From Persicobacter psychrovividus (lineage in GTDB: Bacteria; Bacteroidota; Bacteroidia; Cytophagales; Cyclobacteriaceae), in the NCBI RefSeq assembly GCF_036492425.1, contig NZ_AP025296.1, positions 1-64,000 of the forward strand: a DNA stretch of 64,000 nt, in the 5' to 3' direction. Each line of letters begins with the position of its first letter. Within the stretch, counting starts at the first letter, position 1. The notes below the pieces were generated by a model, which saw only the letters and a list, made by a program, of their open reading frames with translations, ran no database searches and was not told where the DNA came from. The translations under genes and the position numbers were made by a program. Shown piece by piece: positions 46,448 to 63,674 of the stretch.

Positions 46448-46485
46448 AAGATCCATCAGTGTATTTGACTGATGGATCTTTTTTT
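46448..46485 (+). terminator. Rho-independent terminator
   Basis: Thirteen-base arms aagatccatcagt (46448-46460) and actgatggatctt (46468-46480) followed by a T run to 46485. It lies 25 bases after the barrel gene. Confidence 0.92.
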
Positions 46486-46603
46486 CGCCTTCAATGAGGC
46501 AGCAAAAGAGAGGTGCACCGTGGTGTGTTTTTCCTACAACAAACTTGAATCACAACTTACAATAAAGGCAATGCTCTCTCCCATTTTGCGCCTACATCAC
46601 CTG

Positions 46604-49600
46604 CTATTTTTTGATCAGTTTAAAGGATTTATCCCCTGCAATGACCACATGGTAGATGCCCGAAGGACAATGCGCAAGATTCAACTGCATTTCGCTGCCT
46701 GAGGCCGTAAGCTGATAAATCAACGCACCCGATGGGCTGAATACCTGAACTTCCACTCCTGCTGCCAGCTCCGTGATCGTCAGTTTTCCTGAAGTTGGGT
46801 TCGGGTAGACATGCCCCACCTGAGCAGCCTCATTGCTTAGGATCACCTCTTCAAATACCACCTTAAAGGTCGCATTGTCGGTGATTCTCGGTGTTTTCCA
46901 AGAGTACACCCCCTGCGAAATATTGAGATCTTCTTCGGGAATTTCCACCTCATTGAAATACACCGCCGCAAGTTCCGATTTTTCAGCAGCTTGGAACTCA
47001 AAGGTAATTTCACGCTTAATTTCTACTTCCAGCATGTCCTCCGTGAGCTCTTCTCCGCCGATCATCAGCAACCCAGGCCCTTCTTTTTCAACGGTAAGTT
47101 CATAGGTGATTTTTTCAAATGTTGCCGCAATGCTGTGTGCTGACATTACCTCAGAGAACGTATAAGACGTTTGCACCGCTACTTCAACACCATCAATCAT
47201 CAAACTTGCAATTCGATAATCGGCTTTGGGTTCAATGCTAAAAGTGATGCTGCCTCCCTCGATGACTGAAAGCTTCGTCGGGTTTAACAACTCAGCCGTA
47301 TTAATTGCGCCATTTTGATCCGAAGAAATCGTGATTTCGTGGGCGTGAATGAGTCCTTTCAAATAAGGTCTGATATTGAGATCCATAGCGGGGATCTGCG
47401 CTAAAAACCAGTCATTTTCAAAATCCCAATCCACAAAAGTAGTGTCGGTTGCTCCTTGCGCAAAGGCAACGGTAGGTAATCCAAACGAAACCGAATCGAT
47501 CCCTGCATTGGCATACACCCCTACGGTCTGAAAATCAAAATAGCTGTTCTTGGTAACCTCCAAATCGCTACCAGCAAATAAGCCGCCAGCACCATCGGTG
47601 CCAGAACCCACTGCCTTGCCATACACCTTTCCAGAAACCCAGCAATTTTCGATGTATATTGGGTCAGGGTCAATAGGGCCAGGAGGTAAGATATCAATCC
47701 AGGGACCAATACCACCGCCGGAAGCAGCATCTCCAGCAATACCACCAACATAGGAGGCACTGTAATCATTCCCTACCGTTCCGGTGACAAAACAATAGCT
47801 GACCGTGGCCCCCATTTCTCCAACAATCCCCCCGACAAGATTCATGGCATTACCGATAGTACCGTTCATAAAGCAGCGGCTGATCGGCGAATCGTTGTGT
47901 CCGGCTATTCCGCCAATTTTATTCGGTCCATCAAACTCTCCATCTTCGACGTTAACACCTAAGATCTCCCCACTGAATGAACAGCTTTCAAGCTTGGCCA
48001 TCGCAAAAACAGTATGCCCATGCGTACCGGCTATACCGCCCACGTTTTCATATCCCTGAATCAACCCATCGATATGGCAATGCATAATCTCGCCAAATTC
48101 ATTTTTACCAAAAATACCACCGACATTCTTTTTACCCAGAATATTCACTTGACTCAAGGTGAGGTTTTTCACTGATGAGGGCACTTCATTCATCGGGTCA
48201 AACCCAAAAGCCTCTGTAAAAAGACCTACATTTTCCCCTTCAGGAAGATTGATGTGTAAACCTGTGATGGTATACCCTTTACCGTCCAGTTTACTGTTCC
48301 AGTTTTGAATCGGCTTAAAGCCATCGCCCAAATGCCACTGTGCCGTTTCGGTCGCGTCAATATCCTGCGTAAGCTCAAAGTAGCTGTTACTGTATTGCGT
48401 GGTATGATAGCTCAGTTGTGCAAGATCCTCAACATCTGAAATCAGATACGGTGACGCTTCGGTACCCGCTCCGGCAAGATTAAGATTACTGCGCAAATGC
48501 ACTTCTACAGGTGCGATTTCTCCACCCTGATAGGTGAAAGTATAGGGGTTTTCAGTAACGAAATTATCATTGATAAACCAGGCATTGAAAGTGTACCCTG
48601 CAAGTGGCTGTACCTGAAGCACTACCTCATCTCCAATGTTTACCCCTCCTGCACCCGTAATAAATTTTACCGCCGGATTTTCTTCTACGGAAATATACCC
48701 ATCGTAAAGTAGCCATTGTAAAAGAGGGCGTGTGTTTACATCAAAGTCAGTGTCCGATTGAATCTCCCACTGGGCATCAAAATTGAAAAAATTGAACTGC
48801 TCCTCAGATTCAAAATCGGAGGTTTCCAAACCAAAGGATTCCTCACTTCCTGCAGAAAATTCCTGTCCTGTGGTGGTCTTGTCCCAGTAAGATAAACGGA
48901 TGTTTCCACCACCTTCCCCAGCAATACCGCCCGCATTCAGGCCATTGACCTCACCAGTGGCAAGGGCAAAAGTGATCGTCCCCTCTTCAATACCAGCAAT
49001 ACCGCCGACGTTCGTTCCTCGGGCATTCACTGAGGCCGAAGAAAAAACATGATCCATCGTGCTGCTCGATCCCTGCGACCGCCCCACGATACCTCCGACG
49101 GCATCATTACCTGCTACCGATCCCGACACCACCACCTGATGGATCTCTCCATTACTATATACACTACTTGTTCCAACCAGTGCACCGGTACCGTCGCCCC
49201 CATTAATGGCTACATCTTTCAAACAAAGGTAATCTACAGAGGCGCCATCTATATATCCAAAAAGTCCAACATTGGAAGCCTTGGGTCTGTTGATCGTCAG
49301 GCCGGAAATCACGTGCTTGTTGCCGTGCAATACACCCTTGAAAGGTTTGTCGGGATGTCCCGCAGGACTAAAGCCTAATCCCCCATTCCAATCCGCTGTT
49401 GCTGAGGCATCAATATCAGCCATTAATATAAAATATTTCTGATAATTGCCCTCTAAATTTGCCATATAGGCCAATTCTGACAGCGTTCTAATTTCAAAAG
49501 GGTCCTCATATGAACCATCACCACCACTGAACAATGGCCCCTGCTGTTCCTCAAACACTGCGGTGTATTTTGTCGAGCTCATCGCTGACAATGTGAAATT

Positions 49601-50716
49601 ATATGCTGCATCGGTAGAGATCACAGTCCCGTGGGCATCTTCCCATTGTACAAACTGGTACCCTCGGGATGAAGTCGCCGATAAAGTAACCTGATCATTC
49701 AGGTTATAGCCACCACCACCTGAAAGTACCGCTGCTCCAGATACCGGCTCCGAAGTAACCGCAACGGCCATCTCGTATAACTGCCACATGAAATAGGGCC
49801 GTTGATTGGTATCAACCTCAGGAAGGTTTCCATAATCCCATGTGGTCCCAATGCCTATCCCAAAGATATTGTTTTCATCCAAAAATTCACTGGTAGTTCG
49901 TCCGGTAATCCCTCGAATTGGGAACCCATCGACCTCTTCGGCCTGCCCTACCCCAGCGGTTTCCGCATCAAAGTAACATTGGGAGACACTACCCGAAAGA
50001 CCTGAAAGTGAAATAGTGAAGCCACCAATCAAGGCGTTAATATTTTCCGTTCCACTGGCATTACTCACTGGCCCAAAAGCATAAGACTGCATCAGGCTAC
50101 CACTGGAAAATTTTCCGATCAGCCCTCCGCCATTCTGCCAAGATTCCGAGCTCACACAGATGACCTCCGCCCCCGAGTAACAGTTTGAAACTACCCCGTT
50201 GGATACAGCAATCAGGCCTCCGACATTGGTACCCGAAATTCTTCCAGTGGTAAAACATTCCGAGATGGTAGAAGTGGACCCCATATAGCCAACAAGTCCT
50301 CCGGCATTCCCCAGAACGTTAATATCCAGCCCCGTCAGGCCAAGCTGATCCACCTTTGCGCCATTCAGTCCATAGAAAAAAGCGGCAAAACTTCCTGGTC
50401 CGTCATAATGGATATTTGAAATGGTATAGCCATTCCCACGAAAGCTTCCGCGAAAATAATAGCTCCCCCCAATAGGTGAAAAATCATCCCATTCGCTGCA
50501 ATCAATATCAGCCATCAAACTATAATGGAGGTCGAATCGCTCGGTGGAAGGTTCTTCGCCCACGGTTCCGAGCGACAACCATTTGAGGTGTTCAAGATTT
50601 TCAATCAGATAGGGATTTGCCTCAGAACCATCACCATTTACGGGCATGGTCTGAGCAAAACTGATCACCGACCAAAAGGTGGCCATCAGCAGTCCACAAT
50701 AAAACTTAAATTTCAT
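46604..50716 (-). CDS. Large GLUG-repeat surface protein with T9SS sorting domain
   Basis: A 1370-residue secreted protein with a signal peptide ending S-F-A-Q. It has three large blocks of GLUG-type repeats (G-G-L-V-G, G-G-I-A-G and variants) predicted to form a beta-helix. Each block starts with the same pattern, G-x-G-S/T-x-x-x-P-F/Y-x-I (near residues 28, 398 and 752). Between and after the blocks are bacterial-repeat/Ig-like domains with G-Y-x-F-x-x-W motifs. The T9SS domain at the end has V-Y-P-N-P and C-P-S-G-I-Y. GLUG proteins are commonly adhesins or proteolysis-linked surface proteins. It follows the SusD gene by 82 bases and is the last gene of the protease-SusCD array. Confidence 0.88.
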   Translation of the reverse strand: MKFKFYCGLLMATFWSVISFAQTMPVNGDGSEANPYLIENLEHLKWLSLGTVGEEPSTERFDLHYSLMADIDCSEWDDFSPIGGSYYFRGSFRGNGYTISNIHYDGPGSFAAFFYGLNGAKVDQLGLTGLDINVLGNAGGLVGYMGSTSTISECFTTGRISGTNVGGLIAVSNGVVSNCYSGAEVICVSSESWQNGGGLIGKFSSGSLMQSYAFGPVSNASGTENINALIGGFTISLSGLSGSVSQCYFDAETAGVGQAEEVDGFPIRGITGRTTSEFLDENNIFGIGIGTTWDYGNLPEVDTNQRPYFMWQLYEMAVAVTSEPVSGAAVLSGGGGYNLNDQVTLSATSSRGYQFVQWEDAHGTVISTDAAYNFTLSAMSSTKYTAVFEEQQGPLFSGGDGSYEDPFEIRTLSELAYMANLEGNYQKYFILMADIDASATADWNGGLGFSPAGHPDKPFKGVLHGNKHVISGLTINRPKASNVGLFGYIDGASVDYLCLKDVAINGGDGTGALVGTSSVYSNGEIHQVVVSGSVAGNDAVGGIVGRSQGSSSTMDHVFSSASVNARGTNVGGIAGIEEGTITFALATGEVNGLNAGGIAGEGGGNIRLSYWDKTTTGQEFSAGSEESFGLETSDFESEEQFNFFNFDAQWEIQSDTDFDVNTRPLLQWLLYDGYISVEENPAVKFITGAGGVNIGDEVVLQVQPLAGYTFNAWFINDNFVTENPYTFTYQGGEIAPVEVHLRSNLNLAGAGTEASPYLISDVEDLAQLSYHTTQYSNSYFELTQDIDATETAQWHLGDGFKPIQNWNSKLDGKGYTITGLHINLPEGENVGLFTEAFGFDPMNEVPSSVKNLTLSQVNILGKKNVGGIFGKNEFGEIMHCHIDGLIQGYENVGGIAGTHGHTVFAMAKLESCSFSGEILGVNVEDGEFDGPNKIGGIAGHNDSPISRCFMNGTIGNAMNLVGGIVGEMGATVSYCFVTGTVGNDYSASYVGGIAGDAASGGGIGPWIDILPPGPIDPDPIYIENCWVSGKVYGKAVGSGTDGAGGLFAGSDLEVTKNSYFDFQTVGVYANAGIDSVSFGLPTVAFAQGATDTTFVDWDFENDWFLAQIPAMDLNIRPYLKGLIHAHEITISSDQNGAINTAELLNPTKLSVIEGGSITFSIEPKADYRIASLMIDGVEVAVQTSYTFSEVMSAHSIAATFEKITYELTVEKEGPGLLMIGGEELTEDMLEVEIKREITFEFQAAEKSELAAVYFNEVEIPEEDLNISQGVYSWKTPRITDNATFKVVFEEVILSNEAAQVGHVYPNPTSGKLTITELAAGVEVQVFSPSGALIYQLTASGSEMQLNLAHCPSGIYHVVIAGDKSFKLIKK

Positions 50717-50798
50717 AAGCTAAAGGTTTAAGGTTAATATTTATTTCAGTAAAATGCCCGGCAGCGAATGATCCTCCAAAAGCCACCGAGCCAAACAA

Positions 50799-52319
50799 TT
50801 ATTTCAGCGGATTCTGATCCTGGGCATTAATCGCCGTATTGGCGTCAAGCTCCGATTGCGGAATCTGCATGATCCATTGCGGATCCCCAGCTCGGAGGTT
50901 CATCACCCGTGCCATTCCAGGGTCGTGGGTTTTATCCCTTTGCAGGTCTTCGCCATTTCTCATCATGTCAAAAAAGCGGTGCCCCTCTCCCCAGAGTTCG
51001 AGGCGGCGTTGCAGTAATATTTGTTCGATCAGCTGATCACCCGAGAGGATCCTTTCCGAATAATTGGCAAGCCTGTTTTGCATCAGCATCTTCAGGTCTG
51101 CACGGGCAGCAGCCTCGTCGCCCATATGGAAGGAAGCCTCCCCACGGTTGAGGTAAAGCTCCTCCATCCGCATCAGGACATAATCACCTTCCCAGGCTTG
51201 ATTTTTCAGTAAAAATTTACGGGTAGCCTGTGTTGGCCAGACGAAATTTCCTGCTGCATCGAGTTCATAATCGCGGTCAGCAAACACATTGTAGCGCACA
51301 TCGTTGGTGGTCAGTTCAGCATATAATGTTGCGGAGATTTTCTTCATCGAGCCCAGGGTAGCATAGCCGCCAGCAAAAGGGTCAATGTGAGAGAAGAAGG
51401 AAGCGTAAAGCGTCGTTTGTGCGCCGTTAATGGCCAGTCCCCATACCCATGCTGGGTTGTAGACGTTGTTAAAACCATCCAAATACGACTGTGCAGGCAT
51501 CACATAATGCCCCTGTTCCTGGGCAGAAGAGATGGCTAAATCAGCAAACTCATGCGCCTTTTCCCATTCATTGGTCACCAGGTACACACGTGAAAGCAGT
51601 CCCGCAACTACCGCATGACTGATGTGTGAATGGTGTTTGCGCGGCACCGAAACCACCTCGTCTTCCTTCTGGTCATTGTTTTCCGTTTTTTCTTCCAACA
51701 GATCAAGCGCCTCAAGGTAGTCATCTTTGATCTGATCATAGACGGTGGTCAGTGGTGCGCGCGGTAATTGCTCAAGCTCAGCCGTTAATTTGACAGGAAT
51801 ACCCGGGGCATTTTCATGCCCTACAAAAGTCTGCTGAAACACCTGCACCAAACGGTGGTGGCCATACGCACGAATAGCCAAAGCCTGCCCTTTCACATAA
51901 GCTTTTTCATGCTTGTTTCCTTGCGAAGTGTCAATAGAGTTGATGATTTGATTCGCCTGAAAAATCAGCTGATAATAATACGACCAGATATTGGCAGGAC
52001 GCCCGTGGGTTTCTGCTCTCGAAAATTCAATGCCATAATCGTTGGCAAACCAGTTATGCCCCAGCGAATGCAGGGCCATGTCATCGCAACGCAGGTCCAG
52101 GGCCAAATTAATCGCCATTTCTCCGAAAGTATCATGACTGCCAGCCAAATACATATAACGATACAACCCATTGAGGGCAATTTCCTGCCCCTTGACGGTA
52201 GAAAGCAGCTCGTCGGAGGGAATAGCATCAGAAGGGTCACGGTCGAGGTAATCCTTGGAGCAGCCCAGGGTAAACACCCCCATAGCCACCAATAATATGA
52301 GATATAATAATTTTTTCAT
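50799..52319 (-). CDS. SusD/RagB-family lipoprotein (third copy)
   Basis: A 506-residue outer-membrane lipoprotein. The start at 52319 (M-K-K-L-L-Y) is preferred to 52337 because it lies 4 bases after the SusC stop and gives a clean signal ending L-G-C20. The sequence then reads S-K-D-Y-L-D-R-D-P, with helices of the TPR-like core and the C-terminal R-R-L-E-L-W-G-E-G-H-R-F-F-D-M-M-R motif. Because the array also encodes a giant protease, its ligand may be peptides, as for RagB, rather than glycans. That is an inference. Confidence 0.94.
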   Translation of the reverse strand: MKKLLYLILLVAMGVFTLGCSKDYLDRDPSDAIPSDELLSTVKGQEIALNGLYRYMYLAGSHDTFGEMAINLALDLRCDDMALHSLGHNWFANDYGIEFSRAETHGRPANIWSYYYQLIFQANQIINSIDTSQGNKHEKAYVKGQALAIRAYGHHRLVQVFQQTFVGHENAPGIPVKLTAELEQLPRAPLTTVYDQIKDDYLEALDLLEEKTENNDQKEDEVVSVPRKHHSHISHAVVAGLLSRVYLVTNEWEKAHEFADLAISSAQEQGHYVMPAQSYLDGFNNVYNPAWVWGLAINGAQTTLYASFFSHIDPFAGGYATLGSMKKISATLYAELTTNDVRYNVFADRDYELDAAGNFVWPTQATRKFLLKNQAWEGDYVLMRMEELYLNRGEASFHMGDEAAARADLKMLMQNRLANYSERILSGDQLIEQILLQRRLELWGEGHRFFDMMRNGEDLQRDKTHDPGMARVMNLRAGDPQWIMQIPQSELDANTAINAQDQNPLK

Positions 52320-52323
52320 TTTC

Positions 52324-55300
52324 TTAAAATTTAACATCCAAACCTAATGACATCGTGCGAATGGGGTAATAGCCATTGTTCATATAGCCGTCCGCTGAAG
52401 CAGTGCCGGGGAAATAGCCCTGCATGGAAGAAAAGGTGAACAGGTTGTCCACGGCAAAACTAATTCGCAGATTATCCATGTGGATCGCTTTGGCGGTCCG
52501 CTCGGGGAGGGTATAACCGAAAGTGATATTTCTGATGGTGGCATAGCTGGCGTCGCTGAGGAACCTGCTCGAGGTACTCACCAAGTTGCTGTTGTCGATT
52601 TCAATTCTTGGCACATCTGTCACCTGCCCTTCTTCGCGCCAGGCATTTTTAATATCCGAATGCATAGCCACCCCAAAGCTTGGGTTCATTAACTGATGGT
52701 AACCTGAATTGTAAACCTCACCACCGAGCTGGTAATTGAGCATCACCGATAGGTCAAACTGTCGGTAGTTGAACCGCTGATTGATAAATCCGGTCAGGTC
52801 GGCCATTGCTGAGCCCACAAAATAACGATCGGCATCATTGGGGTCAGTGGTTACTCCCCTGCCGAGTCCTTCGCCCAAATCTTTGTAATACATGGCATCT
52901 CCGGTTTGTGGGTTTACGCCGGCATAGTCGAACATATAGAAATCGTAATAGGACCTGCCAACCTCCAGGCGCTTGGAAGAAGATAACATGACCACCTCTT
53001 GCGGTAGTTCCGTAATTTTATTCTTCATGTGTGTGGCTGCAAAATCCATGTTCCAGCGGAAATTGGTGGTTTTCAGCAGCGTCATGGAAAGGTTAAACTC
53101 CAGCCCGTAGTTTTTCATTCCTCCGATATTAGCCGACTGCCCACCCCAGCCATTGGAAGGGGCCACGGGCATGGTGAAGATCAAATCTTTGGAAGCATTG
53201 TTGAAGTACTCTATGCTTCCGGAAAATTTATTGTTCAGTAAGCTGAAATCCAGGCCAATGTTGGTCGCCTGCCGCTTTTCCCAGGTCAAATCGCGGTTGG
53301 CCAGATAGGTCATCCGGCCACCGTATTCCGAATTATTCGGGTAGGTGAGGTTATAATTGTCGCGATAGATATAATAATTCGTGCCCAGGTTTTCATTCCC
53401 CTGTTCACCTATCGAGCCTCGCAACTGCAAGCTGTTTACCCAACGGAGGGAATTCATAAAATCCTCTTTATGGAGCGCCCAGGATCCCCCTATGGCCCAG
53501 AAGTTGCCCCATCGCGATTCTGGTGCAAGCCTTGAGGTCCCATCCCGACGAAAGCTCAGTGAGCCAAAGTACTTTTCGTTATAGTTATATTCAAAGCGGG
53601 AAAGATAGGATTCAATCACGTGCTCATCCACCCACGAACTGGCAAAAGTAGGGTGAGAGCCCACGCCAAGTTCCGGAAGACCCGCCACGGGAAATCCCTG
53701 TGTGGTGCCGGTTAATCCTTTTTGTTGATAGTAGTAATTTTCATGTCCCACCAACCCACTGACATTGTGCTTTCCGAAGCTGTTCTGATAGGAAAGTAGC
53801 TGATTGACCGTCAGGGTGGTGTATTCATTATCGGTACGCGATGACCGGCCATCTACATTATCGGCATCGCCGTAGAGGCTGTTTTGATGGGTAATTGAAT
53901 TTCGGTTGACATAATCCAGCGTCACATTGGTACGGGCGGAAAAGTGATCGTTAAATTTCACATTCAGGTAAGTCCTTCCCGAAATAGCATTGTTGGTATA
54001 GCCAATAACATCGAGCGTGGTGGTACCTACCGCATTAGAATTGCCGAGGTAAGGACGTGATCCAGCGTAATCGTAAATCTTTTCTCCGGCATCGTCGAGC
54101 AGGAAGCTGCCATCCTCTTCACGCTGATATACCGGATAAATTGGTGCGATGGTATTGGCGAAGAAAAACGGATTGGAAGCCGTGGTATTGCCTGTACTTG
54201 CACCTCTGGATTCTGTGAAAGTATAAGAAAGGTTGGCACCGGCATTCAGCCATTTTTTGATGTCTGAATTTACATTTACACGCGTAGAAAAGCGTTCGAA
54301 GCCTGTATTTGTCGCCACACCATCTTCATTCAAATAGCCGAAAGAAACAAAATAATCCGTGGTGTTGGCAGCTCCGCTCATTGCAATTGAATACTCCTGC
54401 CGCAGTGCCGCCGAAAAAAGTTCATCCTCCCAATTGTCGCCATACAGAGCATTCGCACCGGCATTCATCTGTCCCGTTGTGGGGTCAATCAACAAGCTGT
54501 CGGCGACATCAAAAGCATTATAGCCCCCGAGTTGCTGCACGAGGTTTCTTCGGTAACCCGCAAACATTGGGTGTGAATACACCGGATGCTGCCCCGAGGC
54601 AATCAGGCGGGCATCTTCCTCGGCAATATCCGCTGCCATAAGGTTGTTTTTGTAACCTTCCCATTGTGCTTCATAATAATCTTTTTGCCCAAGGCGGTCG
54701 TAGCCTCTCATGGCCCGCTGTGCAATACCCGTTCGGGATTTAAACTGAATGGATCCTTGCCCACTTTTTCCTTTTTTAGTGGTGATCATCACTACCCCAT
54801 TTGCTGCACGCGAGCCATAAAGTGCTGTAGCTGCCGCATCTTTGAGGACCGTCATCGACTCAATATCCGCAGGGTTGAGGTTATTCATCGCCCCGCCAAA
54901 AGGAACACCATCCACCACATACAATGGTGCCGAGGAAGCATTTACGGAGCCAATTCCACGAATCTGGATGGAAGTCCCTGAGCCCGGCTGCCCACTCACC
55001 CCAGACACTTGAACCCCAGCTACGGCCCCCTCCAGGGCGTTCTGAACATTGGAAACCTGCAGTTTTTCGATATGATCCTTTTTAACCGTTGCGGCTGATC
55101 CTGTGAAAGATGATTTTTTTTGTTCGCCATAAGCGACCACCATTACTTCCTCAAGTTCGGTGGCGTCGGCATTCAGGTAAACTTGTATGTTGGACTGATT
55201 GCCCACCTTCACGACCTCGCTGGTATATCCTATAAATGAAAATGAAAGAACGGTTTCAGCAGCAGGCACCTCGAGCGTAAATGCACCATTGATATCGGTA

Positions 55301-55455
55301 ACGGTACCAGTAGCCGTTCCCTGAATAACAACATTTGCCCCGAGGATGGGCTCGCCACTTTCTTTATCGTTGACCTGCCCCTTGACCTGAATCTGGGCGA
55401 TCGTCTGCGTGATCCCGAACAGGGAAAACAGCAGGACTAAATATATTTTTTTCAT
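52324..55455 (-). CDS. SusC/RagA-family TonB-dependent transporter (third copy)
   Basis: A 1043-residue outer-membrane transporter. The start at 55455 (M-K-K-I-Y-L) is preferred to 55476 because it begins the signal peptide (ends T-I-A-Q). Then follow the carboxypeptidase-D-regulatory-like domain (G-Q-V-N-D-K...G-A-F-T-L-E-V), plug with A-T-A-L-Y-G-S-R-A-A-N-G-V, and barrel ending L-G-L-D-V-K-F. It lies 57 bases after the protease gene, 4 bases before SusD, and has a hairpin 26 nt upstream of its start. Confidence 0.95.
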   Translation of the reverse strand: MKKIYLVLLFSLFGITQTIAQIQVKGQVNDKESGEPILGANVVIQGTATGTVTDINGAFTLEVPAAETVLSFSFIGYTSEVVKVGNQSNIQVYLNADATELEEVMVVAYGEQKKSSFTGSAATVKKDHIEKLQVSNVQNALEGAVAGVQVSGVSGQPGSGTSIQIRGIGSVNASSAPLYVVDGVPFGGAMNNLNPADIESMTVLKDAAATALYGSRAANGVVMITTKKGKSGQGSIQFKSRTGIAQRAMRGYDRLGQKDYYEAQWEGYKNNLMAADIAEEDARLIASGQHPVYSHPMFAGYRRNLVQQLGGYNAFDVADSLLIDPTTGQMNAGANALYGDNWEDELFSAALRQEYSIAMSGAANTTDYFVSFGYLNEDGVATNTGFERFSTRVNVNSDIKKWLNAGANLSYTFTESRGASTGNTTASNPFFFANTIAPIYPVYQREEDGSFLLDDAGEKIYDYAGSRPYLGNSNAVGTTTLDVIGYTNNAISGRTYLNVKFNDHFSARTNVTLDYVNRNSITHQNSLYGDADNVDGRSSRTDNEYTTLTVNQLLSYQNSFGKHNVSGLVGHENYYYQQKGLTGTTQGFPVAGLPELGVGSHPTFASSWVDEHVIESYLSRFEYNYNEKYFGSLSFRRDGTSRLAPESRWGNFWAIGGSWALHKEDFMNSLRWVNSLQLRGSIGEQGNENLGTNYYIYRDNYNLTYPNNSEYGGRMTYLANRDLTWEKRQATNIGLDFSLLNNKFSGSIEYFNNASKDLIFTMPVAPSNGWGGQSANIGGMKNYGLEFNLSMTLLKTTNFRWNMDFAATHMKNKITELPQEVVMLSSSKRLEVGRSYYDFYMFDYAGVNPQTGDAMYYKDLGEGLGRGVTTDPNDADRYFVGSAMADLTGFINQRFNYRQFDLSVMLNYQLGGEVYNSGYHQLMNPSFGVAMHSDIKNAWREEGQVTDVPRIEIDNSNLVSTSSRFLSDASYATIRNITFGYTLPERTAKAIHMDNLRISFAVDNLFTFSSMQGYFPGTASADGYMNNGYYPIRTMSLGLDVKF

Positions 55456-55481
55456 AAAGTTGAATCTTAACGCCAAAAGAT

Positions 55482-55503
55482 GGGGAGGCAGGAATACCTC
55501 CCC
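55482..55503 (-). promoter_or_regulatory. Intercistronic hairpin between protease and SusC genes
   Basis: Arms ggggagg (55482-55488) and cctcccc (55497-55503) form a 7-bp GC stem with an 8-base loop. Only a short T run follows on the minus strand. It occupies the same place relative to SusC as the hairpin at 12797-12820. Confidence 0.6.
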
Positions 55504-55511
55504 TAAAAATG

Positions 55512-58500
55512 CTATTGCTTGATAATGTTTGCCTGGCCGATTACGGCCTGATCAGTGGAAATGCGGAGCATATACAAGCCTGAAGACAAACCAGATACCG
55601 GTACTTTAATCTGATTATTTCCGGAAATGGCCTGTGTTTGCTGACTCAACAGCAATTGCCCTGTGGTTGAAAAAATGTCGATAGTGGCTGTTGCAGCAGC
55701 CTCAATCCTGAAACTAACATTCACAAAATCCGTCGCTGGGTTCGGCGCTACCCCAAACTGCTGCTCCTCTTCGGTGTTCAGTGGGTTCAGTACATCAACC
55801 ATCACTTCGGTGTGGTAGGGGCGCTTCCACACAGGATCATTGGTGCGGAAAGTAATTTCAGCAGCCAAATAATCATCAACCTCTTTGGTGGCGTCAATCC
55901 TGAAATCAATGGTGCCCTTGGATTCAATATCAATCTCGCCTTCAGGACCACCGGGAAAAATCAGCCAACCGCCTTGCCCTTCGTGCTCGGCACCTACTTT
56001 AATTTGCCATCCGGCACCACCAAGTCCCACATAGTTGGAGTCAAACCAAAGCCCCTGGGAAATGATATAATCTTTTCCATATTCCCTGTTGCTTCTTCGG
56101 TCGAAAGCCTGCGGAAGAGCAATGCTTCGTGGATAAGTAAATTGTACATAGAAGTTTTCATAAGGAAGAATCTCTATTTCCTCCTCCAGCTCAATACCAA
56201 ACCAATGCGGCGTATTCTCTTCGCCATCATAGGTTTTTATGGCTGTTTGTTCATGAACCAGCTGCATGGTTTCAATGGTTGTTCCACGATAAACAGCTAC
56301 TTTGATTTCAACAATTTCCGTTTTCTCAATCTGGCAGAGGGTCCATACTTTTGACAGCCTACTGCCCTCTTCCGGTGCCTGAAATTTGGTGGCCGCCGAG
56401 AAAGGAACACCCTGCCCGAAACCGGTTACCGAAAAGGCATTATTTCCACGGATATTTTCAAAGAAGTGTACCAGGCCCTTATCCGAAGGAATATCGCCTA
56501 CTTCAGCTTCCTCCTCCATTTGTACCGCTCGTGCTGATTGATCCACTTCCGCAAAAAGCGTTGCGAATGGCAGACCTTCGGTGGTTTCTACATTTTCATC
56601 CTGCATCAGGCGAGCAAAAGGAGTCTCCTGACGATAGTATTCCACAGCCGCCTTGTACTGAAGTGGAGATTTCCCTTTTTCATTTGAGAGCGAAATGCTA
56701 TAGGATTTCCGCTCGCCACGCACAATTTCACTGCGGATGATTTCATCATGCCCTCCATAAACCGGCGCACTACCCAAAGCGGCCTTCCATGGAATGCTCA
56801 CCTGTTGCTCACTGCCTACCGCATCGAGCGCTCTCCAGGTGAAGTTCAGATTGGTAGCAAGGTTGATAAATTCATCGCTGACCAAATAATACTGACCGTC
56901 GACACGCTGTGCATATTCCGGAGAAATCTCGACATAAAAGTCGAAGAAATCCCCTGGGGCAATCTGTTTTGGCGTTGTAAAAACATAATCGCTGATCGGG
57001 GTGAAAATGTACAGACTTCCGCCATCGTAAATCTTCTCTCCAAAAACCTGCCGTGCTGAATTACGCTCAAGCCCACCACCTACAATTTCTATGGGAGCTG
57101 TTCCCGTATTGGTGATTCTCACCCGATGGTCAATGCCCTCCTGAATTAAAGGGTCAAGGGATTCATAGAAAATGATGCCAAGATCGACAGTCGATTCCTC
57201 GGGAGTAAATGCGCCCACACCTTCGATATTAACATGGATAGGGTGTTTGAAATCTTCCTCCGTACCCGGCTGATTGGAAAGCGCATGCAATACCCCTTCC
57301 ACCTCATAGGTGCCAATTTCACGGCTGTCTATCAACAGCTCGTAAGTCCCCGTTTCCATGGGCCCAAGCACAAATTTTTGCTGAGGTTTAAAAACGATCG
57401 ACATTTCATCGCTGATGTAATTTTCCATGAACGACAACTGGTAGCCCTGCATTTTATCCTCACTCTGAATACCAATAGAACCGAAAGCATCCAGAAAATA
57501 GATCGTATTGGAGGCATCAAAACCTCTGTCAGGCATCTGATACTGGAATTTGAAATTGCCCGTTGCGTAGAGGATCAGCTGAAAAGACATCGAGTACCCC
57601 ATGCCGAACATATCATTATACAGGTGATACTGAATCGTTACCTGGTCTTCTTCTTCAAGATAATAGACGCCGGCCGTCTTGGGAAATTCATAAAAATTCG
57701 GTGAGGTAGGGTGATATAAAGGAGCGATCATGGTCTGGAATCTGCTTTTATCATAGGGGATATAAGGAATCATTCCGGGATTGTCCCACTCCCTATTTTC
57801 TACCTCGTTGAAAGTCACAAAGCCAAAGGAGGCGATGTTGATCTGCTCGTAATGCTTGCCATAAAACTCAAAAGAAAATGGCAATTGCTTGTTGGCGAAA
57901 GGCTGACCCGTCCAGAAATTCAACTCAGGCATATATTCTGCCTGCGGGTGATCAGCAAGTTCCACCCAATCGTAAGAAGGTCCCCTGCGTCCACAAACTT
58001 CAATCAAATCAAAGCCCCCGCTTTGTTCCCACCAGCATTCCTGCTTTCCGGTTTCAAACTTGTAATCCACTTCGGAAACTTCTGAGCTGCTGCCCGTTTT
58101 AAGGACATTGAACCAACTGTCGGTATCAAAGAAGAAGGTCAGGTCTGAGCGCCCTTCATTTTTCACCGTAAAGGGTTCATAATGCAGGTCTCCTCGGTGA
58201 AGGTCCACGGTGGTTTGGTCATTTTCCCATTGCCAACTGAAAATCGGCACTTCCGTTACTTTGGCCGTCAGGTTGAAATGCAGTGGATCAATACCCGATA
58301 ACGCAACCTGCATGTCGGCACTATAATCGCCCACGTTTTCAGTATCAGCCACAATTTCAAGGTAAGCAGTTTCTTTAGGAGCAACGGTGGCACCGAGAAT
58401 GGATTGATTTTTAAGTACGAAGCCCGGGTTTGAAAATTCTACCCCATCAATCCTGAAAGCAGACGTTCCGGTATTGTTGACTGGAATATACTTGGACTCG

Positions 58501-61500
58501 AGCTGCTGATTTAGCACCGCATCAAAGTGAATATCTTCCACAATGGTTTCGACACCTGGCGTACCTCCAGAAACAATATTCATCTTTACATGAACACCCT
58601 GAGAGGTATTGACAGGGTCGTTGGAAACCACCGCAATATATTGCTCAAACTCGCCTTCAAACCATTGGGAAGGATCGATATCGAAGGTAATTACTTCCTC
58701 TTCACCTGCCAGCAAAGTGCCGTGGGTGGTGTTGAAGTTTTCCGCCAGGTTGACGCCAGGGTTCCGAAATTGCAGGTAATAGCCCAGGGCCGTTTTATCC
58801 AATGCTTCGGTATCCTCAGGATCTATCGTGCCATAGCCCAGTTCTGGAAAATGGTTCCATTTTTTGAAAAGCAAACCATCCTCCTGCTGTGGTTCTTCAA
58901 TAGCCACATAAGCGAACGTTCTCAGGATATAGCCATCGGTACCCTCGGCAGGCCACGAGCTGTCATATACAATATCAATGTCGCCACTGCTGTAAATTAC
59001 ATACTGAAAACTAAAGGCTTTATTGTAGGTTGAGGCATTGGCTGTTTTCACCTGATCGTACTGCACGGTCAGTTTACCCTGTTCCTGCAAGTAAAGCAAC
59101 CGTCCGCCATCATTGAAAGACAGGTTTTCAAAGAGGCCTGAGATGTAGCCTTCGGGCATATAGGTATCCCTGAAGCTTGGTGTAGCATTGAAAGCATGAT
59201 CACTGAAACACAGGATGCCGTACTTGCTCAGATAGATATGTCCATAGTATTCCCCAAAAAACGGGAAGGCAAAACCGATATCAATACGCTTGTTAAGTTG
59301 TGAACTTACTCGGATTTCCTCTGTAATATCCTGTGTTGAAACATGATTGGAAATATCACGAAACTCGGGTGCATCCTCTGCGGGATCATGTGACAGATTG
59401 CTGTTTTTAAAATCCGTTTTATAGGTATAGCCAAACAGGTTGCTGCGTTCATAATCCGGAATATCCTTGTCGGAGTATTTAGCAATAACATATTGCAGGG
59501 CAGCATTGCCATCATTCATGATTTTGAAAGTGTTGCCGATATGTTTCGGATCATTCAGATCCGTGTCAGGCAATACAATTTCCGCAGGGGATAATTTCAA
59601 AACACTTGGTGCGATCCCGCTGCCAGTAAGTACCAGTCGCAGCTTCCGATCTGTGCCCTCCATGCTTGCGATTGCCGTAGCGTTGTATTCTCGCTGTTCG
59701 GTGGGCTTGAAGGTAAAAGCAAATTTGTTCCGGTATCTTGCAGGAAGATCTGAAGGTCCTGTTACCGTGAAGGCATCGTCGGAAATTTCCCATTGAAGGT
59801 CCTTGGCGTCGGCGTAGCCAATATTCGAAATATACAAATCATGAGTGGTTGTTCCCCCTTCAAATATTCGCCCAAAATCTGTTACTTCATCCACTTCAAG
59901 CTGTGGCTGTACATTGATCAGGTTAAAATCTACCAGAAAATTGTGATAGGTTTGGTCTTTTTCATTAGTGAGAAAAGTGTGGGTAAGCTCATGCTCGCCC
60001 GCCTTCACGCTGTCCAGGTGTAACTGAATAGGGATCTGCACCTGTTCGCCGGCCTCCAGAATACCTTCGGTAACCGTTGGCTGTAGTATTTTCTGGGACT
60101 GATATACATAAGGCATCACCATGACATCAAACACACTGCCATAAAATTGCGGTAAATCTGATTCGAGCGCTTCGTTCAGGTCTTGCCAGTTTTTTCCACC
60201 ATCAAAAGACATCATGGAGGTTTTATCGTGCTGAACCCCTGCCCAAGTACCGATAAACATCGGTGAGGCATTGAATTTCCCCGCAGGATGATGCACCACC
60301 ACCCAGAAGTTTTCGCCTTCTTCAAAAATTAATTTGTTGGGTAAATATGCCCGACGAGTCATTGTCAGTGGCGCATCGTAATCTGAGGTCGTCCCACTTG
60401 GATTAAATTCCTGCGCATTGAATGCCGCCACACGCTTGGCGGTTTCCAGCGAGGAACCAAGATATATTTCCACCGATTCCGTGCCATAAAAGTCGGGACG
60501 GCTGCTGGCCCTGAAGGTCACATAATCTATCGTATATTGCCCGCTTTCTGTCGCCGGAACGGTAAAACGCTGCGCCTGACTGTTGGTCAGGTATCTTGAG
60601 CCATCTCCTATGGAAGTATACAACGTTTCATAAGGATCGCCCATTAAATGCAAGTAAGGGTCGGTGGTATTTTTAGGGTCGATAGCACCGATATAGTTCG
60701 GGTCCGAAACATTATTGGCTGCTGCGGAAATCGCAACATTGAGATCACTTCGCTCGAGTAACTGATTGGTCAGTGTCACCGAAACTCCTGCTGCCGATCG
60801 AGCGCGAGGGGCATTAAAACTCGCTGGCACTTCTGCCATTTCAGCGGCTTTTTCAGCCATAGCATTCAATTCCAAAGTTCCCGAAACAAGTTGCCATTTC
60901 AGGGCCCCACCTTCAGAGGCCGAGGCCATATTTTTTACTTTCAGCCATGGGGTCGAGGGGTTAAGAAAATCCGCTGTAATCAAATGATGCCCATCCGCAT
61001 TTGAATCATGAAATTCCACTGTAAGTTCAGGAGACCTTTTAATTTCAGACGCAACAGTTACCGATTCCTCATTGGTATTCCCCCAGCGGTCGATGGCTTT
61101 TATTTTGGCAAAAATCGGTGTGCCGAAAGGAAGGTCGTCAAGCTTTTTCAAATCAAATTGCATCTTTGTTCCTGCCTGTTGATTATTGTTTTTTATGGTG
61201 ACCGTTTCCGCATTTGAAAACTGGGCGTCGGTGGCCCAGGTAAAATGGTATTCTTCGGGATAGATATCCACCACATCGGAAGGTACCGACCATTGGTAGC
61301 TCACCATATCGAAAGAGCTCCCTACGGCAATAAAGTCGGTAATATTTTCAGGGCCATTTCCGTCGTCAATTCGCAAAGCATATTCTGTGTCAATATATCC
61401 GCGTCCAAGCTGCCCAGCATATCCCGAGGCATTGTACTGATAGATATCACGGACAGAAGTCAGGATAATATTTCGGAGACCTTCACTGTCAAGTTTCCCG

Positions 61501-62906
61501 AAATTTTCCGGATGCGAAAGTACCAAAGCGGCAATTCCCGACACATGAGGGCAGGCCATTGAGGTCCCTGCAAAGTAGGCATAACCATCACTTGGCGCCA
61601 GGCTCAAAACCTCGGTAATCCCGTATCCGTCCCCTCCTGGGGCAAACACATCAAAATATTCCCCAAAATTAGAGTAGGATGCTTTGGTGAAATCTGGAGC
61701 CATGGCACCCACAGCCACAACCTCATCATAAGCACCAGGATAAAACCTAAAGTTCACATTGCTATTCCCAGGAGCAAAGAATACCAGGCCTCCCTTCATA
61801 GGACTTCCTTCATAATCTCCAGCTTCCGCAACAAAATACTTGATGGCATCATGAATCACCTCTTCCTTGAAATCTGGGCTGGTGTATCCCCAAGAATTCT
61901 GTGAAATCACGGCACCATTATCCGCGGCATAAATATAGGATTCAGCGATACGCTCGGCCGTAGATCCTCCTGAAAGAATCTGACAAACCATCACTCGGGC
62001 ACCGTCACCATTCCCCGATCCGCCAGCAACACCCGACACACCCACGCCATTGTTGTTTACCGCAGCCACAGTTCCCGCAACGTGCGTGCCGTGCGGGTCT
62101 GGGGTGATTTCAGGACTGTTTTCTCCAAAATTAAATCCGTGGATATCGTCAATATAACCATTGCCGTCTGTATCTTTTCCCACTTCCATTCCTGTGTTAG
62201 ACTCCCCTGAATTGACCCATAAATTGGCCTTCAAATCTTCATGCTCAATGTCAATCCCTTCATCGTGCACCGACACAATCACCCGGGAATCCCCATAAAC
62301 CTGATGGCGTTCCCATGCTTCAAACAAATTAATATCGGCTCCCGCAACCGCCTGATCATGCCATTCTCCGGTATTATGATAATGCCACTGATCAACCAGC
62401 GAGGGGTCATCCATGGGCATCGACTCATTATTTCGGCTGCGCATAGCGTTCAGGTCTGCGGCAATCATTTTACCCTGATCAAACTGCTTCTCATAATTGG
62501 CCTCTGCCCGCTCAATTTCTGCCAACTGCTCAAAATGTGTTATCATGGTTGCGATATCCTGAGTCGGATCTCCGATCACCTCATACCACAAATGCAGTCC
62601 GTGTTTCCTAAGTTTGGCCTCATTGCCTCCTTTGGCTTCAAAAACCCGCTTAACTTGAGTGGCTCCAAACTGCACATTGATCTGATCAAAGGCCGCTACG
62701 CCTGTCTGTATAGCCTCGCCGCTCGTTCTGGCGTTAGAAAAATAGGCTGGCTGATGGCCCTCCTTAAATTTCACACGGACAACACCCCTGCGCATACCGT
62801 CCATAAATTGGGCTTGGCTAAAGGCCCATTGTGTACTGAAAGTGCATATAAGCAACCCTATTACAGACACAAATACCTTATAGTACCTGTATAAAAAATT
62901 TGACAT
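55512..62906 (-). CDS. Giant subtilisin-like (S8) surface protease with T9SS sorting domain
   Basis: A 2464-residue secreted serine protease. Signal peptide ends A-F-S-Q (about 31), followed by a propeptide-like region (about 40-140) and the S8 domain (about 190-515). Catalytic residues by motif: D215 in V-H-D-E-G-I-D, H272 in H-G-T-H-V-A-G-T, oxyanion N381 in P-G-N-S-N and S449 in G-T-S-M-A-C-P-H. FN3-like, ASH/choice-of-anchor (about 1005-1100 and others) and two related beta-domains (about 1180-1385 and 1640-1835, with P-F-F-G-E-Y-Y and S-F-E-F-Y-G-K) follow. T9SS sorting domain at about 2383-2464 (A-P-N-P and S-S-G-L-Y). It should digest extracellular protein at the cell surface. It precedes SusC by 57 bases and follows a 47-residue gene by 42 bases. 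Confidence 0.92.
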   Translation of the reverse strand: MSNFLYRYYKVFVSVIGLLICTFSTQWAFSQAQFMDGMRRGVVRVKFKEGHQPAYFSNARTSGEAIQTGVAAFDQINVQFGATQVKRVFEAKGGNEAKLRKHGLHLWYEVIGDPTQDIATMITHFEQLAEIERAEANYEKQFDQGKMIAADLNAMRSRNNESMPMDDPSLVDQWHYHNTGEWHDQAVAGADINLFEAWERHQVYGDSRVIVSVHDEGIDIEHEDLKANLWVNSGESNTGMEVGKDTDGNGYIDDIHGFNFGENSPEITPDPHGTHVAGTVAAVNNNGVGVSGVAGGSGNGDGARVMVCQILSGGSTAERIAESYIYAADNGAVISQNSWGYTSPDFKEEVIHDAIKYFVAEAGDYEGSPMKGGLVFFAPGNSNVNFRFYPGAYDEVVAVGAMAPDFTKASYSNFGEYFDVFAPGGDGYGITEVLSLAPSDGYAYFAGTSMACPHVSGIAALVLSHPENFGKLDSEGLRNIILTSVRDIYQYNASGYAGQLGRGYIDTEYALRIDDGNGPENITDFIAVGSSFDMVSYQWSVPSDVVDIYPEEYHFTWATDAQFSNAETVTIKNNNQQAGTKMQFDLKKLDDLPFGTPIFAKIKAIDRWGNTNEESVTVASEIKRSPELTVEFHDSNADGHHLITADFLNPSTPWLKVKNMASASEGGALKWQLVSGTLELNAMAEKAAEMAEVPASFNAPRARSAAGVSVTLTNQLLERSDLNVAISAAANNVSDPNYIGAIDPKNTTDPYLHLMGDPYETLYTSIGDGSRYLTNSQAQRFTVPATESGQYTIDYVTFRASSRPDFYGTESVEIYLGSSLETAKRVAAFNAQEFNPSGTTSDYDAPLTMTRRAYLPNKLIFEEGENFWVVVHHPAGKFNASPMFIGTWAGVQHDKTSMMSFDGGKNWQDLNEALESDLPQFYGSVFDVMVMPYVYQSQKILQPTVTEGILEAGEQVQIPIQLHLDSVKAGEHELTHTFLTNEKDQTYHNFLVDFNLINVQPQLEVDEVTDFGRIFEGGTTTHDLYISNIGYADAKDLQWEISDDAFTVTGPSDLPARYRNKFAFTFKPTEQREYNATAIASMEGTDRKLRLVLTGSGIAPSVLKLSPAEIVLPDTDLNDPKHIGNTFKIMNDGNAALQYVIAKYSDKDIPDYERSNLFGYTYKTDFKNSNLSHDPAEDAPEFRDISNHVSTQDITEEIRVSSQLNKRIDIGFAFPFFGEYYGHIYLSKYGILCFSDHAFNATPSFRDTYMPEGYISGLFENLSFNDGGRLLYLQEQGKLTVQYDQVKTANASTYNKAFSFQYVIYSSGDIDIVYDSSWPAEGTDGYILRTFAYVAIEEPQQEDGLLFKKWNHFPELGYGTIDPEDTEALDKTALGYYLQFRNPGVNLAENFNTTHGTLLAGEEEVITFDIDPSQWFEGEFEQYIAVVSNDPVNTSQGVHVKMNIVSGGTPGVETIVEDIHFDAVLNQQLESKYIPVNNTGTSAFRIDGVEFSNPGFVLKNQSILGATVAPKETAYLEIVADTENVGDYSADMQVALSGIDPLHFNLTAKVTEVPIFSWQWENDQTTVDLHRGDLHYEPFTVKNEGRSDLTFFFDTDSWFNVLKTGSSSEVSEVDYKFETGKQECWWEQSGGFDLIEVCGRRGPSYDWVELADHPQAEYMPELNFWTGQPFANKQLPFSFEFYGKHYEQINIASFGFVTFNEVENREWDNPGMIPYIPYDKSRFQTMIAPLYHPTSPNFYEFPKTAGVYYLEEEDQVTIQYHLYNDMFGMGYSMSFQLILYATGNFKFQYQMPDRGFDASNTIYFLDAFGSIGIQSEDKMQGYQLSFMENYISDEMSIVFKPQQKFVLGPMETGTYELLIDSREIGTYEVEGVLHALSNQPGTEEDFKHPIHVNIEGVGAFTPEESTVDLGIIFYESLDPLIQEGIDHRVRITNTGTAPIEIVGGGLERNSARQVFGEKIYDGGSLYIFTPISDYVFTTPKQIAPGDFFDFYVEISPEYAQRVDGQYYLVSDEFINLATNLNFTWRALDAVGSEQQVSIPWKAALGSAPVYGGHDEIIRSEIVRGERKSYSISLSNEKGKSPLQYKAAVEYYRQETPFARLMQDENVETTEGLPFATLFAEVDQSARAVQMEEEAEVGDIPSDKGLVHFFENIRGNNAFSVTGFGQGVPFSAATKFQAPEEGSRLSKVWTLCQIEKTEIVEIKVAVYRGTTIETMQLVHEQTAIKTYDGEENTPHWFGIELEEEIEILPYENFYVQFTYPRSIALPQAFDRRSNREYGKDYIISQGLWFDSNYVGLGGAGWQIKVGAEHEGQGGWLIFPGGPEGEIDIESKGTIDFRIDATKEVDDYLAAEITFRTNDPVWKRPYHTEVMVDVLNPLNTEEEQQFGVAPNPATDFVNVSFRIEAAATATIDIFSTTGQLLLSQQTQAISGNNQIKVPVSGLSSGLYMLRISTDQAVIGQANIIKQ

Positions 62907-62948
62907 TAATAATAAAGGTTAAAATGGATAATGATGATATAATTATTA

Positions 62949-63092
62949 CTATTTTTTGGGAGTGCTCTTATCTAAAGCACGTACCAATTTTTTAAGGGCA
63001 TTATTGAGTACAATTCTTTTTTGAATTTTTTTTCTCAAATGATCTTCAAAATCGGAATCTGTTTTGGTGTTTTCTTTCTTGTCTTTTTTCAT
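62949..63092 (-). CDS. Small lysine-rich protein, 47 residues
   Basis: The frame starts at an ATG (62.. minus strand, base 63092) and ends TAG at 62949-62951. The product begins M-K-K-D-K-K-E-N-T-K and has a predicted helix with alternating basic and hydrophobic residues (H-L-R-K-K-I-Q-K-R-I-V-L-N-N-A-L-K-K-L-V). A ggagg-like ribosome site lies 12 bases upstream. It has no signal peptide. It is 42 bases before the giant protease gene and very likely co-transcribed. Family and function are unknown; the amphipathic basic helix could bind nucleic acid or a membrane. Confidence 0.6.
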   Translation of the reverse strand: MKKDKKENTKTDSDFEDHLRKKIQKRIVLNNALKKLVRALDKSTPKK

Positions 63093-63674
63093 ATATAATT
63101 AACGCCTCCCAAATGCAATTATACATCGATATCTCATTCTCTTCTAATTCTTCACCCTAACGAAAACACTACCTGAATCACAGTGGCTACTACACAGCGA
63201 CACAAACACCACTCAAATAGCGTTAACTCACTTTTTATCAGCGATAATAACACACATTTAGAAACCTTAAAAAATGAACTACAAAGAGTTTATTCTTCTT
63301 AAATTCTACTGAATCAGCCTTAATTAAAGAGGATAATCTGTATCGAAAGCCTATTTAGCATACCAAATTTAATTCTTCATTTCAGCCTGAGAGCAATTGA
63401 TATATAGGTGAAATTGGTGAATGAAAGTAAAAATCGTGTTAAACACACAACCCCCAAAAGGATGAGGCTACGGGTCTTTCATTCCTTACATTGTCTGTAA
63501 ATACTTAATGTATGCTGATGTAATTTTATCAAATATCACAAAACAATATATTTAATAGATGAATGTATCCCAAAGCAAAATTCGCCCTGACTTTATCTGA
63601 TGATTTCTTAGGTTATAAAAAGTTATCATTATCTTTAAGCCTGCAACAACTTTCATTCTTTCAGCAAGCATATC
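63093..63674. other. Divergent intergenic region, 582 bp
   Basis: Separates the protease array (-) from the partial gene at the right edge (+). A CAAATTTA at 63364-63371 is a minus-strand TAnnTTTG match, but its -33 element (CAA at 63394) is 22 bases away and the leader would be about 270 bases. No clear operator was found. Confidence 0.35.

Follow-up and report, generated by a model that had tools for sequence, protein, structure and literature searches.

Can a bacterium carry, in one compact block of DNA that strains may exchange, what it needs for feeding on protein? This question is raised by a stretch of 64,000 nucleotides from Persicobacter psychrovividus (the window), in which an initial annotation had picked out five minus-strand genes at 46604-63092 as a candidate protein-utilisation locus. 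ORF calls on the window confirmed all five genes and their gaps of 42 (microprotein/subtilase), 4 (SusC/SusD) and 82 nt (SusD/GLUG), while the subtilase/SusC gap, previously given as 57, is 56 nt. The array does not end at 63092 as had been proposed, since a divergent regulator gene belongs to it too. It is thus a real array of six genes, the sixth of which extends beyond the window end:

46604..50716, minus strand: GLUG/InlB-repeat T9SS protein, 1370 aa
50799..52319, minus strand: SusD/RagB-family surface lipoprotein, 506 aa from the second ATG (longest ORF to 52337)
52324..55455, minus strand: SusC/RagA-family TonB-dependent transporter, 1043 aa from ATG (longest ORF to 55476)
55512..62906, minus strand: T9SS subtilase (S8), 2464 aa
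62949..63092, minus strand: basic microprotein, 47 aa
63675..64000, plus strand, continuing past the window to C5:65363: divergent TPR-TM-coiled coil-HTH regulator, 562 aa

Domain searches of the five array proteins and of the regulator found no CAZyme family, which places the locus outside the definition of a PUL and bears out the earlier remark that the array holds no glycosidase. Scanning the window for Rfam families and tRNAs returned nothing.

The six genes are found in the same order in Persicobacter sp. JZB09, so the neighbourhood whose lack of conservation would have spoken against the original proposal is in fact conserved, and outside these genes the JZB09 locus has no strong match to the window side. 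Comparison with G072, a genome of the same species, delimits the block:

46456..64000 in the window (C5:46456-65748 in full, 19.3 kb), no strand: strain-variable cassette

At this site, G072 has instead 4.4 kb encoding a TonB receptor and a phytase, between flanks that are 98% identical, which indicates that the block was swapped as a unit; the cassette junctions fall between genes. These comparisons support the view that the six genes are one conserved unit, and in this respect the array stands as first described, although the regulator, the conservation of the microprotein and the strain-variable nature of the cassette had been missed.

Our preferred reading, to which we give a probability of roughly 60%, is that the locus is a self-contained, exchangeable protein-foraging cassette. 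A membrane-anchored regulator, whose TPR domain is probably extracytoplasmic, would sense an envelope or peptide signal and turn the leftward operon on. The subtilase would leave the cell via Sec and the T9SS and cut protein at the cell surface, SusC/SusD would import the resulting peptides, and the GLUG protein would keep cells on the substrate. The microprotein, in the cytoplasm, would have as its target the nascent protease (in folding, export or translation) or, less likely, the regulator.

The window subtilase matches Peptidase_S8 (PF00082, 3e-39) and Peptidase_S8_N (3.3e-30), has its catalytic Asp, His and Ser motifs intact, as does the JZB09 protein (starts at residues 215, 272, 335 and 447), and ends in a T9SS C-terminal sorting domain (TIGR04183, 7.4e-11) that makes it a predicted T9SS type A cargo. 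SusC matches TIGR04056 at 8.7e-241, and SusD matches SusD-like_3 (4.9e-20) and SusD_RagB (1.6e-17), with a Cys at residue 20 that is invariant in 36 aligned SusDs. Structure modelling covered SusD and the regulator, and the AF2 model of SusD (pLDDT 85.5) shows a SusD fold; by profile matches and model alike, the pair is a predicted SusC/SusD outer-membrane importer.

What this importer carries is less easily read from its nearest relatives. In the comparison with RagB that had been suggested, RagB is the closest neighbour neither by structure, where it appears at ranks 11, 15 and 17 behind SusDs most of which have no known ligand, nor by sequence, since matches to 3lew, 3kez, 3snx and 3mcx were far above it in a profile search. 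RagB is not singled out, and the nearest-structure argument for a peptide cargo stays weak. Many SusDs bind glycans, the left part of the window is rich in glycoside hydrolases (GH28, GH3, GH9, GH130) and one SusCD relative (L055) lies near GFO/IDH/MocA and xylose-isomerase-like genes, all of which would suit a glycoprotein or glycan locus, in which the subtilase strips protein from a glycoconjugate (algal/plant cell wall, mucin-like) and SusCD imports the glycan or glycopeptide. However, the six cassette genes are devoid of CAZyme families and the glycan genes to the left are not part of the present/absent block, and we regard this alternative as unlikely.

Protein foraging through such importers has precedents. 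According to extracts from the literature, RagAB of Porphyromonas gingivalis and BT2263-2264 of Bacteroides thetaiotaomicron are SusCD importers of oligopeptides (PMC10132118, PMC11817032). The locus shares with them the SusC-SusD pair and the working idea of surface proteases feeding peptides to it. The gingipain genes of P. gingivalis lie apart from ragAB, whereas here protease, importer, surface protein and regulator form one block, in which SusD is not specially close to RagB. SusCD-peptidase loci with a proposed role in oligopeptide uptake are already published for Zunongwangia profunda (PMC2864250) and Flavobacterium collinsii (TRV642_0198-0209; PMC10132118), and these, as extracts of the reports describe them, resemble the window in having SusCD adjoining peptidases. 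The F. collinsii peptidases are given there as S9, S37, M24 and M43, unlike the S8 enzyme of the window, and the same extracts make no mention of a giant T9SS subtilase, a GLUG protein, a microprotein or a TPR-HTH regulator in the locus. With PULs, the locus has in common SusCD, a surface enzyme, a surface protein and a local regulator, but it lacks a CAZyme and its enzyme is a protease. Protein feeding of Bacteroidota is less worked out than glycan feeding; a single exchangeable block that unites regulator, protease, importer and surface protein offers a testable unit, and the same species naturally supplies one genome with it and one without.

The association of protease and importer extends beyond this locus. 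A SusCD pair lies close to a giant subtilase in 9 of the 58 rows of a subtilase tree, spread over three lineages of the enzyme, which supports a link between the two, whereas the remaining 49 have no pair counted as adjacent (some fetched stretches stop close to the gene), so a dedicated importer is seemingly not needed by the protease. The rows are mostly best-scoring places, to the exclusion of other places in the 66 matching genomes, and the ends of contigs or stretches truncate several subtilases (e.g. L086, L039, L049 and L002, half of a split stretch); SusC matches at L039 (5.4 kb off) and L090 (3.1 kb, with the regulator gene between) were left out of the pair count. The family-sample searches scored the first few candidates per genome, and a subtilase scan of genome contigs confirmed no relative. 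A second S8-SusC-SusD copy, which no GLUG gene follows, is present at contig C2 of the same genome and is found in G072 as well. The window SusC is 78% identical to that of JZB09 and 61% to the C2 paralogue (73% and 53% for SusD), and type A and type B SusDs form separate clades in a SusD tree. In other genomes, relatives of the window SusCD are mostly lone-looking pairs with mixed neighbours (16 loci, by eye). What holds of the protein-utilisation locus first proposed is hence the conserved unit and the protease-SusCD association in three lineages; that peptides are the cargo is something we infer.

The surface protein at the other end of the array had been labelled a GLUG protein, a label that fits in part: the window protein falls short of the PF07581 threshold (E 0.46, 11.5 bits vs 20.5, four stretches), but the motif is significant in its JZB09 orthologue (L124:26224-30219; 8.1e-11, 42 bits, six stretches), while InlB-type repeats (Flg_new_2) are significant in both. 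A T9SS C-terminal sorting domain is also present (TIGR04183, 1.5e-08), and a role in substrate/cell attachment is plausible and presumed. Identity between window and JZB09 is 41% over aligned residues for this protein and 45% for the microprotein, against 63-78% for subtilase, SusC, SusD and regulator. Surface recognition proteins diverge fast, and a GLUG protein diverging much faster than these four, in a strain-variable cassette, would fit defence or competition, with other cells or their proteins as the targets of subtilase and GLUG protein, and with SusCD as a salvager of debris or only a passenger. The sixth-ranked fold match of SusD points the same way, as it is 8ypt, the BfUbb-ButCD complex, which handles the protein BfUbb, an antagonist according to an extract of its description. 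However, no immunity-like gene was identified (outside any dedicated search), and conservation within the cassette is highest for SusC and SusD, in keeping with a role in nutrition. We find this explanation quite improbable and retain the protein-foraging cassette.

The link of a microprotein family to a single clade of giant T9SS proteases, seen at every locus found, raises the question of what use a cytoplasmic protein of ~50 residues is to an exported giant enzyme. The "small basic protein" of the initial annotation is a real ORF, but its membership of a conserved family had gone unnoticed. In a family sample, it occurs at 23 places in 19 of 295 genomes, 22 of them directly before a subtilase; the remaining one, a match in G219 (E 0.004) that is out of frame within another gene, was rejected. 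JZB09 adds one locus, and at all 23 resulting loci the microprotein is directly upstream of a subtilase; the 22 microprotein-linked subtilases placed on the tree all belong to one clade. The alignment shows a conserved core and variable tails, Ka/Ks is 0.12-0.34 in close pairs with finite Ks, and pS exceeds pN in 188 of 190 pairs. As judged from these comparisons, the family is under purifying selection, which together with its conservation rules out a chance ORF. Scans of 20 members against Pfam and NCBIfam gave scattered weak matches and no family, and four PDB matches, the best with E 0.0039 over 12 residues of the 60-residue chain TP2, were taken as chance; as far as sequence goes, this family without a Pfam or NCBIfam match is the new part of the finding.

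The window microprotein has no signal peptide or TM segment, none of nine measured has a hydrophobic segment (highest 19-residue mean 0.10), and helical amphipathicity of the core is mixed (p < 0.05 in three of nine). We favour a cytoplasmic partner of the protease, rather than of the regulator, because the microprotein remains immediately ahead of the protease even where the regulator gene shifts position; the two likely candidate roles are export partner and regulator partner. It is missing from the type A copies of C2 and G072 and also from L073 and L090, and is thus not indispensable. Its position directly before the subtilase, with frames that touch or overlap in L035 (-4) and L071 (-1), might also befit a short leader that matters through its translation (coupling or attenuation) rather than a partner protein, but selection acts on the amino acid sequence, whose core is conserved while the tails vary, and the gaps are mostly 18-108 nt, which makes a leader rather doubtful. 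At L082, the ORF caller places the subtilase start within the microprotein (gap -89), and in one alignment the L114 row, which served for display only, is one codon out of register.

TPR-HTH homologues occur at all 23 microprotein loci (at L081 as a 123-aa piece only) and adjoin the microprotein in 22; at 22 loci measured, 19 are directly upstream in tandem, two directly upstream and divergent, and one past the distal end of the subtilase gene. Only two homologues in the genome match the regulator over most of its length, both beside a microprotein-subtilase pair. This constancy points to a predicted regulator-microprotein-protease module, found more widely in the family, to which SusCD and GLUG have been added here. 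At its N-terminus the regulator has a hydrophobic, signal peptide-like stretch, followed by TPRs and then a TM helix (by eye) before the HTH, an order that makes the TPRs probably periplasmic. In the NprR-NprX and PlcR-PapR (RNPP) circuits of Bacillus, a TPR-HTH regulator, a small ORF and a secreted protease likewise lie side by side, but the window microprotein lacks a secretion signal and the TPRs are probably not cytoplasmic; a peptide quorum-sensing circuit was rejected on the hydrophobic stretch and TM helix of the regulator and the absence of a hydrophobic segment in nine microproteins. A tentative, more specific possibility is a lineage-specific Cyclobacteriaceae-type system with a membrane TPR-HTH sensor, a helical cytoplasmic microprotein of ~50 aa and a T9SS subtilase of ~2,500 aa that would need the microprotein to be made or exported safely, and which, in Persicobacter relatives, would have gained SusCD and an adhesin and so turned into a mobile cassette for eating protein.

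A single putative operon is supported by the short gaps between same-strand genes and by inheritance as a block; it has stem-loops in two of the gaps and one promoter-like site:

63364..63396, minus strand: Bacteroidota-type promoter-like site (TTG...TAAATTTG), weak evidence
55482..55503, minus strand: GC-rich stem-loop in the S8-SusC gap, z -3.3 to -4.4 across copies
50756..50791, minus strand: stem-loop in the SusD-GLUG gap, z -0.71, not significant

The promoter-like site is the only one on the minus strand in the intergenic part of the array; such sites occur at 2 of 22 loci (0.85 expected) and argue weakly for a single transcript. The regulator-microprotein gaps of window and JZB09 share no conserved block above 10 bases. 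Transcript levels may differ among the subtilase, SusCD and GLUG segments as a result of the stem-loops that separate them. The S8-SusC hairpin is present in all four copies examined, with a primary sequence that differs among window, JZB09 and C2, and the SusD-GLUG stem-loop, equalled in the window by 43 of 200 shuffles, has a counterpart with z -5.0 in the same gap of JZB09.

All five open reading frames of the minus-strand array that the initial annotation had placed at 46604-63092 are present, with one gap of 56 nt rather than 57. According to Pfam and NCBIfam, they encode, besides a 47-aa microprotein, a 2464-aa subtilase of peptidase family S8 with a T9SS tail (its catalytic motifs are intact), a SusC/RagA receptor and a SusD-family lipoprotein, whose genes are 4 nt apart both here and in Persicobacter sp. 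JZB09, and a T9SS surface protein with InlB-type repeats. The GLUG motifs for which the latter had been named fall short of the threshold in the window copy and reach significance in the orthologous protein, and the array is indeed devoid of glycosidases, the same two databases finding no CAZyme family among its proteins. A sixth, divergent gene runs past the window's end (C5:63675-65363, on the same contig) and encodes a 562-aa protein with TPRs.

These six genes form a conserved block that is exchanged as a unit. The expected conservation of the neighbourhood was borne out in JZB09 (CP012852.1, L124), where gene order and orientation are identical and identities to the window proteins, over aligned residues, are 63% for the regulator, 45% for the microprotein, 64% for the subtilase, 78% for SusC, 73% for SusD and 41% for the GLUG protein; no ORF of that locus outside the six genes strongly matches C5:36000-74000. 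In a genome labelled as the same species (G072), the flanks match at 98% and 4.4 kb stands in place of the 19.3-kb C5:46456-65748, with both junctions falling between genes. The replacement DNA carries:

L110 (G072:C22), 12585-16440: TonB-dependent receptor and phytase (Phytase, 1.5e-77), the alternative cassette of this site

A DNA search of window 44100-64000 against G072 returned, beyond the left flank, diverged pieces only, the longest (65% identical) at the copy of the type found on C2, another contig of our genome. Replacement between 98% flanks, with only diverged pieces elsewhere, makes the cassette a strain-variable block. Its G+C content is 46.1%, versus 44.8% and 41.5% in the flanks.

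The more original result is the conserved module formed by microprotein, regulator and protease. Homologues of the 47-aa ORF have 39-77 aa, precede giant subtilases and are under purifying selection, with pS exceeding pN in 188 of 190 pairs and Ka/Ks of 0.12-0.34 (close pairs with finite Ks). No Pfam or NCBIfam family was found in the 20 members scanned, and a profile gave no convincing match in the PDB. A whole-genome search of the 295-genome family sample found 23 places in 19 genomes, 22 of which directly precede a subtilase of the window's kind (in G085, the contig ends within that subtilase); the remaining one was rejected as an out-of-frame piece. With the JZB09 locus, 23 loci are thus known here. 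Among 395 genomes of the class sample, G000 and G144 were the only ones with matches at E 1e-4, and they are members of the same family. Eight close members of the microprotein family, used as queries against named genomes, gave seven loci, with hosts including Mariniradius saccharolyticus, Cognataquiflexum aquatile and Aquiflexum gelatinilyticum.

The subtilases of all 22 microprotein loci placed in the tree (without G072's orthologue of our own C1 copy) belong to one 26-member clade (support 99/98), whose four members without a microprotein are the type A copies of C2 and G072, L073 and L090; the last two loci do have the regulator. Clade subtilases share a homologous C-terminal region of 1,730 residues, on which complete members score at least 253 bits and outside subtilases at most 168 (302 and 108 bits for the truncated rows L002 and L086).

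TPR-HTH homologues occur at all 23 microprotein loci (in L081, only a 123-aa piece matched). Where placement was measured (22 loci), the regulator lies in tandem upstream in 19 (161-1071 nt), is divergent in two and in one sits ~3 kb past the subtilase end on the opposite strand; the G072 C1 copy is in tandem upstream as well. In our own genome, two places match most of the regulator, both adjoining a microprotein-subtilase pair, and four further places match its C-terminal part only. This C-terminus weakly matches a LuxR-type HTH (E 0.018; 0.0062 for the JZB09 orthologue), and the sequence itself shows a TM stretch. The predicted structure (pLDDT 81.8, pTM 0.54) consists of a TPR superhelix, a single long helix and a C-terminal part that is also helical, with best fold matches to TPR proteins in general, including Rap-type peptide sensors.

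A possible regulator site is the following motif, found in 7 of the 21 TPR-microprotein gaps examined:

TTATTCAAAGG: motif at a conserved position, 76-78 nt upstream of the microprotein start, in L037, L074, L076, L080, L082, L083 and L086

These are seven of its eight occurrences in 1.99 Mb of fetched loci (some overlapping), but all are from one subclade, whose close relationships limit the weight of the motif. TTAAGG-like words lie further upstream in several gaps. A strong stem-loop occupies the subtilase-SusC gap of each of the four type A copies examined (z -3.3, -4.2, -4.2 and -4.4), with a primary sequence that differs between window, JZB09 and C2 (C2 and G072 are near-identical); in the SusD-GLUG gap, z is -5.0 in JZB09 and a non-significant -0.7 in the window. 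Such stem-loops, with SusC and SusD 4 nt apart, suggest that segments of the transcript may have their own stability.

Four giant subtilases are encoded in our genome: two in type A order (S8-SusC-SusD; window and C2), one in type B (C2:600-614 kb) and one, on C1, without SusCD. Two arrangements other than type A were seen, of which type B recurs in L087, L088 and L093:

L087, L088, L093, L019: type B, SusC-SusD-lipoprotein-giant S8, a second conserved arrangement
L089, 2608-18515, one strand: SusC-SusD-DUF4843-PKD_2-BSP peptidase-giant S8, three genes separating SusCD from the subtilase

In type B, the lipoprotein encoded between SusD and S8 carries a Fib_succ_major domain in both loci tested (L019 and L093). 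L093 also has a confirmed AraC-type regulator, and L087 and L093 each have a lipoprotein-like gene of ~560 aa before SusC. SusCD-linked subtilases make up three separate lineages (9 of 58 tree rows), and type A and type B SusDs are separate clades in a tree that omits the L089 SusD. For the other 49 rows no SusCD pair was counted alongside, which speaks against an obligate protease-SusCD link, bearing in mind that some fetched stretches stop near the gene and that L039 and L090 have a more distant, uncounted SusC.

Protein foraging is the best reading of the cassette, at a probability of about 60%, in which SusCD would import peptides, the surface protein would mediate attachment and the cassette would be regulated. 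In the SusD model (pLDDT 85.5), nearest folds are SusD-family proteins titled just so or as putative carbohydrate/sugar binders, with ButD of B. fragilis (BfUbb-ButCD complex) ranking 6 and RagB 11, an order that does not discriminate between cargoes. Relatives of this pair look mostly like lone pairs (16 loci, by eye). Two leads come from their neighbours, (i) a D-Ala-D-Ala ligase gene in L055, L060 and L068 and (ii) a possible link to hydroxyproline (collagen or extensin), the use of which the following genes would presumably suit:

L060, 2027-12192: SusCD relative beside proline-racemase-family, DHDPS-family and aldehyde-dehydrogenase genes

There are precedents in the accessible parts of the literature: 12 of 19 SusD-TonB operons of Zunongwangia profunda adjoin glycosyl hydrolases or peptidases (PMC2864250), oligopeptides were given as the substrate of a Flavobacterium collinsii SusCD locus that contains five peptidases (PMC10132118, where RagAB and BT2263-2264 are also cited as oligopeptide importers), and RagAB takes up gingipain-cleaved peptides (PMC11817032). 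No such cassette appears in the parts seen of PMC6246565 and PMC9723794, on peptidases in marine Bacteroidetes (for Persicobacteraceae background, see PMC10645730), or in titles and abstract starts among the matches listed by full-text searches, microprotein terms and most subscription journals being outside the scope.

Left of the cassette and separate from it, window 2958-36064 is a glycan-use region, some genes of which have T9SS tails. It is followed by a further importer, in a part (43045-46455 compared) that is 98.5% identical in G072:

2958-4586, 22816-24435: GH28
5926-8148: GH3
8180-12766: SusC/SusD of the glycan-use region
18191-22747, 25179-27662, 31544-36064: GH9
28239-29612: MFS sugar transporter
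29645-31150: GH130
40271-46422: adjoining the cassette on its left, a gene for a small outer-membrane beta-barrel and a SusC/SusD pair of the SusD-like_2 type

At the contig start, the open-ended ORF 3-665 resembles, by eye, an IS integrase/transposase.
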